Source of the DNA: an uncultured bacterium
GTDB taxonomy: Bacteria; Acidobacteriota; Thermoanaerobaculia; Thermoanaerobaculales; Thermoanaerobaculaceae
Direction of reading: 5' to 3'
DNA: 60,214 nucleotides
Assembly: GCA_937924755.1 (NCBI GenBank)
Contig: CALEVZ010000030.1
Span: 1-60,214 of the forward strand
Shown: piece by piece, positions 44,460 through 51,346 of the stretch
How positions within the stretch are numbered: the first letter of the stretch is position 1
Layout: the number at the start of each line of letters is the position of its first letter
Notes under the pieces: model-generated
What the model was told of the DNA's origin: nothing
The model's database searches: none
What the model saw: only the letters and a program-made list of their open reading frames with translations
Program-made: the position numbers and the translations under genes

Positions 44460-45739
44460 AAACGCCCTCGCTGCTGATCCGCGGCGCCGCCACCCTCGCC
44501 ACCCCCCTGGGCAGGAGCGCGGTGGCGGGGGCGCGGCAGAGAGCCGTCCAAAAGCTGCCCGGGGCAGTGGTGCGGTGCCAGGGAGAGGTCATCGTCTTCG
44601 TAGGCCCCGAGAGCGAGCACGAAGGTCTCTTCCCGCCCCCCGATGTGGTCCTGGAGGCGGACGGGGGGACCATCCTGCCGGGATTCGTGGACCCCCACAC
44701 CCACCTGCCCTTCGCCGGCTACCGCGAGAGTGAATTCGACCGCCGCCTGGCCGGCGAGAGCTACGCAGAGATTGCTGCCGGTGGCGGAGGGATCGTGGCC
44801 ACGGTGGCCGCCACCCGGGCCGCCGGCGAGGACGAGCTGCTGGCCCTGACGCTGGCCCGCATGGACCGTCAACTGCTGCACGGCACCACCACCACGGAGG
44901 CCAAATCCGGCTACGGCCTGGAGCTCGAGAGCGAGCTCAAGCAGCTGCGGGTGCTGCGTACCGCCGCCGCCCACCATCCGATGGACGTCTCCCCCACCGC
45001 CATGCCCGCCCACGAGGTGCCCCCCGAGTGGCGCCACGATCCCGACGCCTACGTGCGCTTGGTGATCGAGGAGATCCACCCGGCCATCGCCGCCGCTGGC
45101 CTGGCCGAAGGCGTAGATGTGTTCTGCGAGACCGGGGTGTTTTCGCCCGAGCAGACCCGCCGGCTGCTGGCTGACGCCCGTCGCCACGGGTGGCGTATTC
45201 ATCTCCACGCCGACGAGCTTTCCCCCCTGGGAGGCGCGGAGCTAGCGGCGGAGCTGGGGGCGGCGTCGGCGTCCCACCTGCTCCACGTCTCACCCGCCGG
45301 CATGCGCGCCCTGGCCGCAGCCGGAGTGGTGGCGGTGGTGCTTCCAGGAGTATCCTTTTTCCTCAAGGAGCGGTTTGCTCCTGCTCGCCGGCTGGTGGCC
45401 GCGGGTGTCCCGGTGGCCCTGGCGACCGACTGCAACCCCGGCTCCTCCCACACCGAGAACATGGCCATGATCATGGCCCTGGCTTGCCTGGGTGCGGGGC
45501 TTTCCACCGACGAGGCGCTCACCGCCGCCACCCTCAACGCCGCCGCGGCCCTGGGCCGAGCCGATCGCATCGGTACTCTGGAGGTGGGCAAGCAGGCGGA
45601 TGTGGTGGTTCTGGACGCCCCCTCCCACGCCCACCTGGTGTACCACTTCGGCGTCAACTTGGTGCGCCACGTGGTGAAGTGCGGCCGGCTGGTGGTGGAG
45701 AATGGCCGGCTCCGCCGCCCCCGGTCAATTGCCGGATAA
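44456..45739 (+). CDS. hutI: Imidazolonepropionase
   Basis: HutI opens the ring of imidazolone-5-propionate in histidine degradation. The 427-residue amidohydrolase has GFVDPHTHLPFAGYRESEF with metal ligands His81 and His83, TTTEAKSGYGLELESELKQL, DVFCETGVFSPEQTRRL, IHLHADELSPLGGAELAAE, SHLLHVSPAG and VALATDCNPGSSHTENMAM with its Asp. The rest of the hut pathway is not in the window. It is coupled to the DivIVA gene and overlaps the convergent DUF389 gene by 15 bp. The first 60 residues form the beta-sandwich domain. Confidence 0.95.
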   Translation: MKTPSLLIRGAATLATPLGRSAVAGARQRAVQKLPGAVVRCQGEVIVFVGPESEHEGLFPPPDVVLEADGGTILPGFVDPHTHLPFAGYRESEFDRRLAGESYAEIAAGGGGIVATVAATRAAGEDELLALTLARMDRQLLHGTTTTEAKSGYGLELESELKQLRVLRTAAAHHPMDVSPTAMPAHEVPPEWRHDPDAYVRLVIEEIHPAIAAAGLAEGVDVFCETGVFSPEQTRRLLADARRHGWRIHLHADELSPLGGAELAAELGAASASHLLHVSPAGMRALAAAGVVAVVLPGVSFFLKERFAPARRLVAAGVPVALATDCNPGSSHTENMAMIMALACLGAGLSTDEALTAATLNAAAALGRADRIGTLEVGKQADVVVLDAPSHAHLVYHFGVNLVRHVVKCGRLVVENGRLRRPRSIAG

Positions 45740-47263
45740 GACCTCGATCCGTACAGTTCGGCTGCCCGGCCCCCGCCGCTCGAGGCCGCCATCGCCGGTC
45801 GACACCAGCTCGACGCTCGCCCCGGCCTTTTCCAGCACTTCGGCCACGTGGGCGGCGCGCCGCTGGGCCAGAGCCGCTCGCTCTCCTGCGTTGCGTCCCT
45901 CCGCCGCAGCGGTTGACCCGGAGACGGCCACCCGGCCTACCCCCCAGCGCCGCAGGGCCCACACCGCATTGGCCAAAGCCTTGGCCCCTTCGCCGTCGGG
46001 AACCGCCTCCCCCGGCGGGAAGCTCACCGGCGGCAGCGGGCGCAACGGCGGCAACAGCTCGACCCGCCACGGGGCGAAGGCTTCCTGAAGAGCCGCTTCG
46101 ACATACCTGATGGCCTCCAGCGAGGCGATAGCGTCCAGGGAGAGCTGGAATCTGGCCAGGCGCTGGGCGGGCGAAACGTCGGCCACCAGCAGCGGAAACG
46201 GGATAGCCCCGCGCAGGCGCCGCGTCTCAGCCTCCCCGGTCTCGGCGGCTGCTGCGCGGCCGGCGCGGATGGCGTCGCTGCCCACCATCAGCTGGTCCAG
46301 CTCCAGCCGCACCGGGATGCGAAGCTCCTGCGCCAGCTCCCGTTCCAGGCGAACCGGTAGCCCACCGTCGAACTCCCGCGCGAACACCACCGCCGCCACC
46401 CGCACTCCCCCATCGGGCTCGGGAGTGACCGCAATCCGTTCCAGGCGGGTGTCCGCCGCCGGGAGGGCGGCGCGCAACACTGCTCCGGCCTGGCGAGAGA
46501 GGATGGTGGTCCGCACCGACTCGTTGAGGGTTTTCACCAGCGGCACCGAGAGTAACACCATCACCACGCCTGCGCCCACGGTCGGCCACACAAGCTCTTT
46601 GGGAGCGTGCAGATTGCCGAAGTTGTACCAGATCGCGCAGGAGGCAACGGAGAAGGCGATGGCCACCAGGTTGGTGAGGAAGAGGTAGAACGCGCCGTTG
46701 AAGACGGACAGCTCGCCCATGGCCAGCCCGTAGCCGGCGGCGGCCAGGGGCGGCATGAGAGCGGTGGCGATGGCCACACCGGCGATGGTCCCTCCCAGCC
46801 GATGAACCACCGCATACCCCCCCACCAGACCGGCGAACACCGCGACGAGGAGATCGAACAGGTTGGGCGAAGTGCGGGCGAGGATCTGCTGGGTGGGGGG
46901 AATGAACGGCGACAGTTTGACGATTGCGATGGAGGTGACCAGCCCCAGCACCACCCCGCACAGCAGAGATTTGGTCGCCCGCAGAGCAAGGGTGACATCG
47001 GTCATGGCAATAGAAAAGCCCAAGGCCACGATGGGCCCCAAGAACGGTGCCACCAACATGGCGCCAATGATGACCGCCGGCGAATCCAGCAGCAAACCCA
47101 AAGTGGCGATGGCAGCGGCCCCCACCGTGAGCACCACGAAGGTGTGACTGGGCGGCGCGTCTACCCGCACCTGCGCCAGCACGGCTTCCCGATCGACGAC
47201 GCGGGCGTGGTCTCGCCACCGTCGCACCAACCCGGCCAGCACATGCGCCACCTGCTCCCTCAT
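45725..47263 (-). CDS. DUF389 membrane protein with an OmpA-like C-terminal domain
   Basis: This 512-residue protein starts with a soluble stretch and then the DUF389 core: FVVLTVGAAAIATLGLLLDS, PAVIIGAMLVAPFLGPIVAL, GVVLGLVTSIAIVKLSPFI and IAGVAIATALMPPLAAAGYG. About eight membrane helices end near residue 280. The remaining 230 residues are soluble; the last 90 (VAVSGSTAAAEGRNAGERAA, LAQRRAAHVAEVLEKAGAS) resemble the peptidoglycan-binding OmpA C-terminal fold. That fusion is unusual for the family. GGAGGTGA precedes the ATG at 47263; a longer frame to 47632 was rejected. Function unknown. Confidence 0.82.
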   Translation of the reverse strand: MREQVAHVLAGLVRRWRDHARVVDREAVLAQVRVDAPPSHTFVVLTVGAAAIATLGLLLDSPAVIIGAMLVAPFLGPIVALGFSIAMTDVTLALRATKSLLCGVVLGLVTSIAIVKLSPFIPPTQQILARTSPNLFDLLVAVFAGLVGGYAVVHRLGGTIAGVAIATALMPPLAAAGYGLAMGELSVFNGAFYLFLTNLVAIAFSVASCAIWYNFGNLHAPKELVWPTVGAGVVMVLLSVPLVKTLNESVRTTILSRQAGAVLRAALPAADTRLERIAVTPEPDGGVRVAAVVFAREFDGGLPVRLERELAQELRIPVRLELDQLMVGSDAIRAGRAAAAETGEAETRRLRGAIPFPLLVADVSPAQRLARFQLSLDAIASLEAIRYVEAALQEAFAPWRVELLPPLRPLPPVSFPPGEAVPDGEGAKALANAVWALRRWGVGRVAVSGSTAAAEGRNAGERAALAQRRAAHVAEVLEKAGASVELVSTGDGGLERRGPGSRTVRIEVLSGN

Positions 47264-47380: not shown

Positions 47381-48607
47381 ATGCCCATGGCAGATTTTCA
47401 CCAGATCGGACCCATTACCACCCTCCCCCGCCTCGTAGGGGACCGTCAGGAGGAGGCAGAAACTCAGCTGCGGAGCTTCTCCCGCCGCGCCCCGTTGGCA
47501 TTGCTGATGCCTTGCCTGGTGAAGGAGTTGCAACAGCCGGCGCTGGCCCGCATGGTGGAGCAGCTGGCCGGCACCCCGTACCTTGATTCGGTGTTCATTG
47601 CCCTCGACCGCGCCGACGCCCAGGGCTACCAACGGGCCCTCCGGTTCTTTCGCGCCCTTGGCCTGCCCACCTGGGTGCTGTGGCTAGATGCCGATCCCTT
47701 CGTCGAGGTCATCCGCGAGATCGAAGAGACGGTGGGGCCGCTCGGCCCACGGGGCAAGGGAAGGGCAGTCTGGCTAGGTCTGGGCGCCATCAACGCCCAG
47801 GGGCGCGCTGGGGCAGTGGCGTTTCTCGACGCCGACATCGTGACCTTCCAGCGGTCCCTGCTGACCAACCTGGTCTTCCCCGTGCTCCACCCGGGTCTCG
47901 ACTACGACTACGCCAAGGCCTACTACGCCCGCTTCGACGACCGGCTGTACGGGCGGGTGTCGCGCCTGCTGGTACGCCCCCTCCTGCAGGCGTTGAGTGC
48001 CACTATCGGCCAGCACCCTTACCTCGCCTACCTGGAGGCGTTTCGCTACCCGCTGGCGGGGGAATTTGCCCTCAACGCCTCCCTCCTGCGCCGCCTCCGC
48101 ATCCCCGCCGATTGGGGGCTGGAGGTCGGACTGCTGTTTGAAGTGCTCCGCCACCGGTCGCCCCGGCGGATCTGCCAGGTGGACGTCACCGACCGCTTCG
48201 ATCACAAACACCAGTCCCTGTCCGCCAACGACCCCGGCAAAGGGCTGCACCGCATGGCGGTGGATATCGTCAAGCACCTGCTGCGCACCCTGGCGGCCGG
48301 CGGTGTGGTGGTTCCCTCGTCCAGCCATCAGGCGCTGCGCGTGGCGTTCCAGCGCTACGGCGAGGATGCCGTGCTGGACTCGTGGGCGGTGGCGGAATTC
48401 AACGGCCTGGCTTATGACCGCCACGCCGAGGAGGAGGCGGTGGAGGTCTTCGGCCAGGCGCTGGGAGAGGGGTGCGAGCAGTTCCTCCGCGACCCCCTGG
48501 GCACCCCTTCCCTGCCCAACTGGGCACGGGTGTTCTCTGCCCTACCTGAGGTGGGGGAACGCCTCCTTTCCGTCGTCCGGGACCTCGACGGCGAGCTCGC
48601 CCCGTGA
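47381..48607 (+). CDS. gpgS: Glucosyl-3-phosphoglycerate synthase (GT81)
   Basis: GpgS joins glucose from a nucleotide-sugar to 3-phosphoglycerate, the first step of glucosylglycerate synthesis. The 408-residue protein has ITTLPRLVGDRQEEAETQLR, MPCLVKELQQPALARMVEQL, RGKGRAVWLGLGAINAQGRA, the metal-binding AFLDADIVTFQRSL with Asp150 and Asp152, YYARFDDRLYGRVSRLLVRP and FRYPLAGEFALNASLLRRLR, RIPADWGLEVGLLFEVLRHR and RFDHKHQSLSANDPGKGL. These are characteristic of the GpgS group. The ATG at 47381 or the one at 47387 can be the start. Its stop shares GTGA with gpgP. Confidence 0.92.
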   Translation: MPMADFHQIGPITTLPRLVGDRQEEAETQLRSFSRRAPLALLMPCLVKELQQPALARMVEQLAGTPYLDSVFIALDRADAQGYQRALRFFRALGLPTWVLWLDADPFVEVIREIEETVGPLGPRGKGRAVWLGLGAINAQGRAGAVAFLDADIVTFQRSLLTNLVFPVLHPGLDYDYAKAYYARFDDRLYGRVSRLLVRPLLQALSATIGQHPYLAYLEAFRYPLAGEFALNASLLRRLRIPADWGLEVGLLFEVLRHRSPRRICQVDVTDRFDHKHQSLSANDPGKGLHRMAVDIVKHLLRTLAAGGVVVPSSSHQALRVAFQRYGEDAVLDSWAVAEFNGLAYDRHAEEEAVEVFGQALGEGCEQFLRDPLGTPSLPNWARVFSALPEVGERLLSVVRDLDGELAP

Positions 48608-49362
48608 AGCTGCGGGCCGTTCTGACCGACCTCGACGGGACTCTGCTGGAGCCCGATGGTACCCTTCACCCAGAGGCTGCGGCCATGGTGCGGGCGTTGA
48701 CGAACCGCTCGATTCCCCTTCTGCCGGTGACCTCCAAGACCGCTGCAGAGGTGGCCTGGTGGCTCGAAGAGCTGGGGCTGGCCGGCCCGGGTGGTTTCGA
48801 AAACGGCGCCGGGCTGGTGGATGTAGCCCGGGGTCCTCGCCTGGTCCCCCACGCCGTGCCGCTGGAGAGTTTGCGGTCCGTCGCCGAGGACCTGCGCCGC
48901 GCCACCGGCGCTCCCTTGCGAACCTTGGAAGAGCTCGCCGACGCCGAGCTCTCCGCCCTCACTGCCTTGACCGGGGAGGCCCTGGCGCGGGCGCGGGCAC
49001 GGCTGGCGACCCTGCCGCTGGTGGTGGAGGAGCGATGGGATGACGTCCTGCGGCGTGCGGCGCCGCCGCCGGTGCGGCTGGTGCGGGGCAATCGGTTTTT
49101 ACACCTGCAGGGCCACCACTCCAAGGCTGACCTCGTGCCGGCCCTGCTCGCCGCGGCGGCAGGAGAGGGTGTCGTGGTCGCCTGCGGCGACGCCCCCAAC
49201 GACCGCGAACTCCTAGGCGCCGGGCAGCTGGCGATCGTGGTGCCATCGCGCCAGGGCCCCCACCCCGATCTGCTGGCGGCGTTACCCGACGCCAAGGTGG
49301 CTCCCGCCCCCCACGGACGGGGGTGGGCGGCAGCCCTCGCCGATCTGCTGGACGAGCCATGA
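48604..49362 (+). CDS. gpgP: Glucosyl-3-phosphoglycerate / mannosyl-3-phosphoglycerate phosphatase
   Basis: The 252-residue HAD-superfamily enzyme removes the phosphate made by GpgS to release glucosylglycerate. LTDLDGTLLEPDG carries the nucleophile Asp9 and Asp11, and ALTNRSIPLLPVTSKTAAEV and FENGAGLVDVARGPRLV follow the mannosyl-3-phosphoglycerate phosphatase pattern. VACGDAPNDRELLGAGQLAI supplies the conserved Asp residues. The GTG at 48604 overlaps gpgS by four bases. Substrate is inferred from the pairing with GpgS; sequence alone gives the MpgP/GpgP family. Confidence 0.9.
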   Translation: MKLRAVLTDLDGTLLEPDGTLHPEAAAMVRALTNRSIPLLPVTSKTAAEVAWWLEELGLAGPGGFENGAGLVDVARGPRLVPHAVPLESLRSVAEDLRRATGAPLRTLEELADAELSALTALTGEALARARARLATLPLVVEERWDDVLRRAAPPPVRLVRGNRFLHLQGHHSKADLVPALLAAAAGEGVVVACGDAPNDRELLGAGQLAIVVPSRQGPHPDLLAALPDAKVAPAPHGRGWAAALADLLDEP

Positions 49363-50645
49363 CCAACGCCGACCTCTCATTTCTGTCGGACAAGCTCCGC
49401 GACCAGCTGGGCGAGGTCGGCCAGGCCGACATCCTGGTGGGTATCCCCAGCTACAACAACGCCCGCACCATCGGCCACGTCGTCCAGGCGGTGCAAGCGG
49501 GCCTGGCGCGGCACTTTCCCCACCAACGGGCGGTGCTCCTCAACTCCGACGGGGGCTCCACCGACGGCACCCCGCAGGTGGTGCAGGAGGCCAGCGCCCC
49601 CTCCCAGGACACCATCCTCGCCCGCCACCCGCTGCGGGCGGTCCACCGCATCGTCACTCCCTACCACGGCCTACCCGGCAAAGGTAGCGCCCTGCGGACG
49701 GTCTTCGGCGCCGCGGTAGTCCTCTCAGCGAAGGCCTGCGCGGTGGTGGACGCGGACCTGCGCTCCATCACCCCCGAGTGGATCGAGTTGTTGCTCCAGC
49801 CGGTGCTGGCCAACGGCTTCGATTTCATCGCCCCTCTCTACCACCGCCACAAGTACGACGGGACGATCACCAACTCCATCGTCTACCCCCTCACCCGGGC
49901 CCTCTACGGCGTGCGGGTGCGGCAACCCATCGGCGGGGACTTCGGCTTCTCAGGGCGCCTGGCTCACCACTACCTCCAGCACGACGTGTGGTTTTCCGAT
50001 GTCGCCCGTTTCGGCATCGACATCTGGATGACCACCACCGCCATCACGGGGGGGTTCCGGATCGGTCAGGCCTTTTTGGGGGCCAAGATCCACGACGCCA
50101 AGGATCCGTCGGTGGATCTTTCCGCCATGCTGGCGCAGGTGACCGGGTCTGTTTTCTCCCTCATGGAGGAGCATGCCGCCCGCTGGGCCACTGTGCGCGA
50201 ATCGAAGCCGGTGCCGGTGTTCGGGTTCGAATACGCCGTCGGCCTGGAGCCGGTACGGGTGAACGTCGGGCGCATGCTGGAGCGCTTCCGCGGCGCGGTC
50301 CGGGAGCTGGAGGAGATCCTCTCCCTGGCGTTGGCGAAGGACACCTGGCACGCGGTTCGCCAGCTGGCTGCCCGAGGGGATGACCACTTTACCTATCCTC
50401 CGGAGCTCTGGGTGCGGACGGTGTACGACTTTGCGGCCGCCCACCACCACCGCGCGCTACACCGGGATCTCCTCCTGCGCGCCCTCACGCCTCTGTACCT
50501 GGGGCGCACGGCAGCCTTTGTCATCCAGATGGAACACGCCGACGCCGCCGAGGTGGAGGCGGCGCTGGAAGAGCTGTGTCTGGCCTTCGAGCGGGACAAG
50601 CCATACCTGGTGCACCGCTGGAAGAACAGGGAGGACCCGCCATGA
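49359..50645 (+). CDS. Glycosyltransferase family 2-like enzyme of the osmolyte operon
   Basis: The 428-residue GT-A protein begins ADILVGIPSYNNARTIGHVV, has AVLLNSDGGSTDGTPQVVQE with its SDGG motif, YHGLPGKGSALRTVFGAAVV, AVVDADLRSITPEWIELL with a DAD motif (Asp131 and Asp133), and FVIQMEHADAAEVEAALEEL near the end. It is related to the GT-A enzymes that handle glycerate-linked sugars. Its start overlaps gpgP as ATGA. A likely role is adding a second sugar to glucosylglycerate, but the acceptor is inferred from operon position, not from any residue I can name. Confidence 0.8.
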   Translation: MTNADLSFLSDKLRDQLGEVGQADILVGIPSYNNARTIGHVVQAVQAGLARHFPHQRAVLLNSDGGSTDGTPQVVQEASAPSQDTILARHPLRAVHRIVTPYHGLPGKGSALRTVFGAAVVLSAKACAVVDADLRSITPEWIELLLQPVLANGFDFIAPLYHRHKYDGTITNSIVYPLTRALYGVRVRQPIGGDFGFSGRLAHHYLQHDVWFSDVARFGIDIWMTTTAITGGFRIGQAFLGAKIHDAKDPSVDLSAMLAQVTGSVFSLMEEHAARWATVRESKPVPVFGFEYAVGLEPVRVNVGRMLERFRGAVRELEEILSLALAKDTWHAVRQLAARGDDHFTYPPELWVRTVYDFAAAHHHRALHRDLLLRALTPLYLGRTAAFVIQMEHADAAEVEAALEELCLAFERDKPYLVHRWKNREDPP

Positions 50646-51346
50646 CCACGAGGTTTTCCGACCGACTGCTGGACTCGCTGGCCAGTTTCTTCGAAGCCCT
50701 GCTGCGTTTCCTGCCCGCCCTGGCGGCAGCGATGTTGATCTTTTTCTTGGGGCTTCTGGCAGGCTGGGTGCTTCGCCGGGTGGTCACCCATTTCCTTCGC
50801 GTCACTCGCTTCGACCGCGCCTGCGACGGTGCCGGCCTGCTGCAGTTGCTCGCCCGGGCAGACATCCGTACTCCCCCCTCGGTGCTCGTGGGGCGGGGGG
50901 TGTTCTGGCTGGTCTTTGCCAGTTTCACCATGGCGGCGATGGCGGCACTGCAAGTGAGTTTCATCGACCAGCTGGTGGCGGAGTTCTTCCTCTACGTTCC
51001 CCGCGTGCTATCCGCCCTGCTGGTGGTGCTGGCGGGCTTCCTTTTGGGCGGCTTCCTGGCGCGCGCCGCCCTGCTGACCGCGGCCAACGCCGGGCTTCCC
51101 TCCCCCCGCCTGCTGGCACTGGTGGTCAAGCTCCTGGTGTCCGTCATCGCCCTGGCCATGGCCCTGGAGCAGCTGCGTATCGCCACCTCCATCGTCCTGG
51201 CCGCGTTCATCATCGCCTTCGGGTCGGTGATGCTCGGGCTGGCGCTGGCCTTCGGGCTTGGCGGCCGCGAGGTCGCCCGGCGGCTACTGGAACGCCACTT
51301 AGAGCAGCCCCAAAACCAAGACTCCGACAACCTCTCTCACCTGTGA
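50642..51346 (+). CDS. MscS-like small-conductance channel, transmembrane-helix part
   Basis: The 234-residue membrane protein has four to five hydrophobic helices (LPALAAAMLIFFLGLLAGWV, VFWLVFASFTMAAMAALQV, LSALLVVLAGFLLGGFLARA, LVVKLLVSVIALAMALEQL and IVLAAFIIAFGSVMLGLALA with FGLGGREVARRLLERHLE). The last part, with Gly/Ala and a basic end, is the pore-lining pattern of TM-helix-repeat relatives of MscS. It is shorter than full MscS and lacks its cytoplasmic vestibule. It is coupled to the glycosyltransferase by ATGA, so it may release the osmolyte after downshock. Confidence 0.75.
   Translation: MTTRFSDRLLDSLASFFEALLRFLPALAAAMLIFFLGLLAGWVLRRVVTHFLRVTRFDRACDGAGLLQLLARADIRTPPSVLVGRGVFWLVFASFTMAAMAALQVSFIDQLVAEFFLYVPRVLSALLVVLAGFLLGGFLARAALLTAANAGLPSPRLLALVVKLLVSVIALAMALEQLRIATSIVLAAFIIAFGSVMLGLALAFGLGGREVARRLLERHLEQPQNQDSDNLSHL

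Follow-up and report, generated by a model that had tools for sequence, protein, structure and literature searches.

A glycosyltransferase gene paired with a vestibule-less MscS-like gene in a putative glucosylglycerate operon of Thermoanaerobaculaceae and in other bacteria

Introduction

What do a glycosyltransferase gene and a channel-like gene do when they overlap, end to end, with two genes for the synthesis of a compatible solute? Solute synthesis and the sensing or release of osmotic pressure at the membrane are usually thought to run via separate, unlinked proteins. The arrangement in question lies in a 60,214-nucleotide stretch of DNA, hereafter the window, from an uncultured member of the Thermoanaerobaculaceae (Acidobacteriota; contig CALEVZ010000030.1 of GenBank assembly GCA_937924755.1). 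An earlier note on the window interpreted the four genes as a unit that makes a di-glycosylated glycerate and releases it on dilution.

Results

A four-gene operon in Thermoanaerobaculaceae

As the earlier note described, four open reading frames follow one another on the positive strand, joined by three 4-base overlaps, all of which are exact (GTGA at 48604-48607, ATGA at 49359-49362, and ATGA at 50642-50645).

47387 to 48607, positive strand: gpgS, predicted glucosyl-3-phosphoglycerate synthase, 406 aa; start from alignment; match to GpgS_Meth
48604 to 49362, positive strand: gpgP, predicted HAD-IIB glucosyl-3-phosphoglycerate phosphatase, 252 aa, GTG start; match to TIGR01486; 4-base overlap with gpgS
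49359 to 50645, positive strand: GT, mannosylglycerate-synthase-like glycosyltransferase, 428 aa; from comparison of its AlphaFold2 model with mannosylglycerate synthase (MGS)
50642 to 51346, positive strand: CH, MscS-like membrane protein, 234 aa; PF05552; directly 3' of GT

The start of gpgS had been placed at 47381, two codons too early. Alignment with 27 other GpgS sequences moved it to 47387, where the protein begins with MADFHQ, matching the conserved M-x-DF-x-Q, and the whole-genome profile match to GpgS likewise begins at this position. Against the NCBIfam model GpgS_Meth, the protein scored 306 bits over residues 5-400 (equivalog cutoff, 700 bits). The acceptor motif of GpgS, GR-V-[ST]-R, reads GRVS in the window protein, and G191, R192, and R195 of the motif (P0001 numbering) are invariant in 28 sequences. 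GpgP matched the MPG-phosphatase family TIGR01486 with an E value of 1.8e-39 and 135.6 bits, under the cutoff of 164.75, and the HAD family Hydrolase_3 over the cutoff. The analysis supports the glucosylglycerate (GG) route originally suggested for this pair. Judging by homology, GpgS would join NDP-glucose to 3-phosphoglycerate, and GpgP would then remove the phosphate.

The order gpgS-gpgP-GT-CH is conserved within Thermoanaerobaculaceae. Six further genomes of that family share it (L003-L008), as do L026 and L114, a recurrence that argues against a chance arrangement. The GTs of L008 (genome G006, from the window's family) and L026 (an uncultured Thermoanaerobaculum) are identical, which makes Thermoanaerobaculaceae the most probable family of the window. 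Upstream of the operon and divergent from gpgS, a gene at 45725-47260 on the negative strand encodes a DUF389 membrane protein, possibly a further envelope or stress gene. A UvrD helicase gene lies 3' of the operon in convergent orientation. A promoter scan returned no usable site on the positive strand.

GT resembles mannosylglycerate synthase in predicted fold and acceptor residues

In Pfam, GT matched Glycos_transf_2 over the cutoff and PF21969 (MGS_GT) just under it (26.6 bits; cutoff, 27). The AlphaFold2 model of GT, built with 89 sequences, had a pLDDT of 89. It matched MGS over its full length, including the helical C-terminal domain (Z 34.0, 359 residues), at a sequence identity of 18-19%, whereas the match to GpgS covered mainly the catalytic domain (Z 19.9, 226 residues). 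Two motifs could be placed by alignment with MGS.

49749 to 49757, positive strand: GT metal/nucleotide motif D131-A-D133, aligned with DAD 100-102 of MGS
49845 to 49871, positive strand: GT acceptor motif R163-x3-D167-G-T-I170-T171, from a profile alignment to 2y4k/2bo4

Across 89 GTs, D133 is invariant and D131 is conserved in at least 90%. R163, D167, I170, and T171 of GT correspond to R131, D135, I138, and T139 of MGS and are all invariant in the 89 sequences; R131 and D135 of MGS presumably contact the acceptor as well. GTIT of GT stands at the position of GRVT in GpgS. The acceptor carboxylate is bound by V186/T187 in GpgS and by I138/T139 in MGS (PMC2581804). The retained MGS acceptor residues, together with GTIT in place of GRVT, favor D-glycerate as the acceptor of GT.

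A polysaccharide or lipid acceptor, the outcome that the earlier note had set against its own proposal, was considered and is disfavored by the predicted fold, which is that of MGS over the full length; lipid-type glycosyltransferases score far lower (Z 16). The same note had placed GT in the GG pathway as the enzyme adding a second sugar. The fold agrees with a sugar-glycerate role but lends the second sugar no support of its own, the closest full-length solved relative being the one-step MGS; the second-sugar idea draws instead on the co-occurrence of GT with GpgS.

GT and CH are paired across bacteria

A scan of species genomes for GT yielded 80 named loci, spanning Acidobacteriota, Nitrospirota, Thermodesulfobacteriota, Pseudomonadota (Gallionellales, Sulfuricella, and others), Zixibacteria, KSB1, and Myxococcota. 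When the channel gene was sought in these loci, CH was found directly 3' of GT, in the same orientation, in 78 of the 79 with enough sequence; in L030, outside this count, the sequence stops too early. The sole exception was L033. The two genes mostly overlap or are separated by 10-30 bp. Other genes near GT vary, with GpgS present in 39 of the 80 loci, GpgP in 32, glycerate kinase in 18, TreY in 17, TreZ in 16, and GlgC, for ADP-glucose, in 9. By these counts, most GT-CH loci sit in compatible-solute gene clusters. The two-gene unit, composed of an enzyme of the MGS/Ggs type, intact or dead, and a vestibule-less MscS-like protein, is widespread. No paper in the literature searched linked this GT to an MscS-like gene, and within that literature the unit seems undescribed.

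Several loci had further distinctive features. In a Gallionellales locus (L042:4741-6954, positive strand), a GpgP-like phosphatase is fused to a glycerate 2-kinase (DUF4147-MOFRL) beside GT, CH, and GpgS, and GpgP/glycerate kinase pairs, adjacent or fused, were also found in L036, L048, L055, L057, and L060. A 387-residue protein that matched nothing in Pfam or NCBIfam is encoded between GpgP and GT in three Thermodesulfobacteriota-type loci (L028, L046, and L065; L065:5800-6963, positive strand).

CH is predicted to retain the MscS transmembrane core

A domain search of CH returned PF05552 only. The MscS beta domain (PF00924) and the C-terminal vestibule domain are absent, both by the domain search and in the model, which consists entirely of helices (pLDDT 87). 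Residues 118-200 of CH aligned with residues 27-111 of Escherichia coli MscS, which comprise TM1-TM3 (Z 9.6, 83 residues, rmsd 5.2, VIA-align ranks 1-2). A profile of 82 CH proteins gave weak matches in the PDB (E 0.07-0.6), all of them to MscS chains, and a Foldseek search of CH against the PDB gave no significant match (best E 1.2), so the assignment to MscS rests on the VIA-align ranks, the weak profile matches, and PF05552. As modeled, CH consists of a transmembrane core of the MscS type, preceded by two additional helices, and has no beta or vestibule domain. Of the MscS-like channel that the earlier note attached to the operon, the conserved linkage and the transmembrane core stand, but the channel role becomes putative because the beta and vestibule domains are missing. 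MscL and one MscS-domain protein are encoded elsewhere in the genome from which the window derives.

Variants of CH were also encountered. At L024:8267-9923 the reading frame is apparently split, with about 950 bases between the halves, and L153 and L154 encode longer CH-family proteins of four tandem CH-like segments with no GT nearby.

GT co-occurs with GpgS, and degenerate GTs keep CH

Among 247 Acidobacteriota genomes, GT was found in 48, GpgS in 46, and both in 40 (Fisher p 1e-31). We considered GT-CH pairs lacking a local GpgS as a sign that GT is independent of GpgS and rejected this idea, since 35 of the 38 genomes without GpgS beside GT have it elsewhere, one match being marginal (E 6e-7). 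Such co-occurrence is odd for an enzyme able to make GG by itself and better fits an enzyme that needs GG; it is the strongest point in favor of the second-sugar view.

A GT-like protein precedes CH in four near-complete Acidobacteriota genomes with no GpgS (G091, G163, G257, and G265) and in two more, G214 and G182, the copy in G182 being cut by the contig end. Where the motifs are readable, these proteins have largely lost the DxD and acceptor motifs and the metal-site His; because of this degeneracy, near-complete genomes with GT and without GpgS were rejected as proof of a one-step route. Even more degenerate copies occur in seven further genomes of family f19, in which the GT-CH examples scanned adjoin TreS-maltokinase and GlgE. 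The pair has survived the loss of GT catalysis. Pairwise dN/dS values of 0.11-0.36 indicate that the degenerate GTs are maintained proteins under purifying selection.

In a quick tree, a single branch separated all degenerate GTs from the others, and the GTs without CH formed one group, with L033 apart. By this tree, catalysis was probably lost in a single event, so the degenerate GTs do not count as repeated evidence. Degenerate GTs lie directly 5' of CH in L129, L133-L137, and L144-L150, all from Acidobacteriota, and those tested at the phylum level have no GpgS.

A candidate contact between GT and CH

The C terminus of CH carries a short conserved motif.

51338 to 51343, positive strand: CH C-terminal tail His233-Leu234, candidate docking motif; H-[LIVFM] end conserved in GT partners

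An H-[LIVFM] end is present in 70 of 82 CH proteins beside an intact GT, in all 13 beside a degenerate GT, and in none of 26 CH homologues encoded away from GT. The linker ahead of the tail is variable and modeled with low confidence. On the side of GT, the C-terminal domain has H371 in 94% of the intact GTs that are paired with CH and in 100% of the degenerate ones, against 0% of the GTs without CH. In the GT of the window, Leu occupies this position. Since the CH-less and degenerate GT groups are clades, the pattern of H371 and the tail may only reflect shared descent.

Discussion

The simplest reading is that GT is probably a one-step glucosylglycerate synthase (Ggs). Its fold, acceptor residues, and gene context suggest that GT transfers a sugar directly to D-glycerate; the sugar would most likely be glucose, with ADP-glucose or another NDP-glucose as the donor. 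This reading draws on the full-length match to MGS, well above that to GpgS, on the invariant acceptor residues, on the GlgC and glycerate kinase neighbors, and on the fusion of GpgP to glycerate kinase. The operon would then make GG by two routes, one of them with a membrane partner encoded alongside, a proposal to which we assign a probability of about 0.5. Evidence against the proposal as a whole, membrane partner included, comes from the co-occurrence of GT with GpgS (40 of the 48 genomes with GT; 35 of the 38 without a local GpgS), from the Leu at position 371 of the window GT, and from the confinement of the informative groups to single-branch clades.

As for the membrane partner, GT and CH most likely form a physical complex that would couple the synthesis or release of compatible solutes to membrane tension. 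The linkage in 78 of 79 loci, the degenerate GTs that keep CH, the tail motif, and the H371 pattern all point to such a complex. The flexible tail of CH, ending in His-Leu, probably docks CH on the C-terminal helical domain of GT, so that the two would act as one membrane-associated unit. How this unit might work can be outlined tentatively. Lacking a vestibule, CH could take GT as its cytoplasmic domain, with tension gating synthesis, or with the solute or nucleotide state of GT gating the pore; in GpgS-less Acidobacteriota, a dead GT, encoded with CH next to trehalose genes, would have a purely regulatory role as a subunit.

Ranked second after the one-step Ggs reading, and in our judgment doubtful, is the idea that GT adds a second sugar. 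Its acceptor would be GG or the phosphate of GG, the product would be glucosyl- or mannosyl-glucosylglycerate, and CH would release this product on dilution. GT is nearly always accompanied by GpgS and has lost its catalytic residues where GpgS is absent, as expected if GpgS supplies the acceptor. Moreover, Persephonella marina contains both GG and glucosyl-glucosylglycerate, and we know of no enzyme that accounts for synthesis of the latter in this organism. However, GT invariably keeps the residues with which MGS binds glycerate, though GG would place its glucose, and not glycerate, near the donor, and both glycerate kinase and GlgC genes adjoin GT. The joint loss of catalysis and GpgS is one event on the tree and could equally mark the end of all GG synthesis.

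It is likewise unlikely that CH is a self-sufficient mechanosensitive valve for the release of GG whose link to GT is a mere convenience of the operon. The match of residues 118-200 to TM1-TM3 of MscS (Z 9.6) and the fact that every weak PDB profile match is MscS favor such a valve, as does the kamA-ablB-ynaI operon of Methanoperedens, another case of an MscS-like gene among osmolyte synthesis genes (PMC11337218). Yet CH has neither the beta domain nor the vestibule and carries a pair-specific tail, it tracks GT specifically, even where the accompanying solute genes differ or GT is catalytically dead, and the genome already encodes MscL and one MscS-domain protein. Finally, GT might be an MGS-like mannosylglycerate synthase, the operon yielding both glucosylglycerate and mannosylglycerate, but this is improbable: set against the closest full-length solved relative and the subthreshold MGS_GT match are an identity to MGS of only 18-19% and the ADP-glucose pyrophosphorylase genes beside GT, which point to glucose, although the donor is not readable from sequence.

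If GT and CH act jointly, they would represent a widespread coupling of compatible-solute synthesis to osmotic sensing or release at the membrane. For a subfamily of PF05552 that pipelines annotate only as "mechanosensitive ion channel", this would supply a name together with a function. Both the tail motif and the dead GTs make the idea cheaply testable.

Comparison with known systems

The first three genes, gpgS-gpgP-GT, are arranged much as in a known operon, and what seems new at the locus, within the literature searched, is the GT-CH pair. Work by Fernandes et al. in 2007 is said to have described a gpgS-gpgP-ggs operon in P. marina, in which Ggs reportedly uses ADP-glucose and D-glycerate to make GG in a single step. 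That operon, like the one in the window, combines GpgS and GpgP with a third glycosyltransferase gene, a likeness drawn from gene content. Ggs is classified as EC 2.4.1.268, and the 2007 P. marina paper (J Bacteriol 189:4014) is cited in PMC3899277.

The MGS of Rhodothermus marinus (GT78; 2BO4, 2Y4J-M) shares with GT the full-length fold, the DAD motif, the R/D/I/T acceptor residues, and an aligned metal-site His; it differs in sequence, at the identity given above, and in using GDP-mannose as the donor. To our knowledge, it has no GpgS or CH partner. Mycobacterial GpgS (GT81; 3E25, 4Y6N, 7P5L) has in common with GT the GT-A catalytic domain, to which the match is mainly limited, and a Thr that contacts the carboxylate of the acceptor, but it acts on 3-phosphoglycerate and carries GRVT rather than GTIT.

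CH shares the TM1-TM3 core with MscS and the PF05552 helices with proteins of the MscS/CmpX kind, CmpX being compared at the level of the family. In contrast to these proteins, CH has no beta domain or vestibule, ends in a His-Leu tail, and is strictly linked to a glycosyltransferase. The kamA-ablB-ynaI operon of "Ca. Methanoperedens" parallels the one in the window in uniting solute synthesis and an MscS-like gene, but its solute is N-epsilon-acetyl-beta-lysine and its MscS-like protein is YnaI (PMC11337218).
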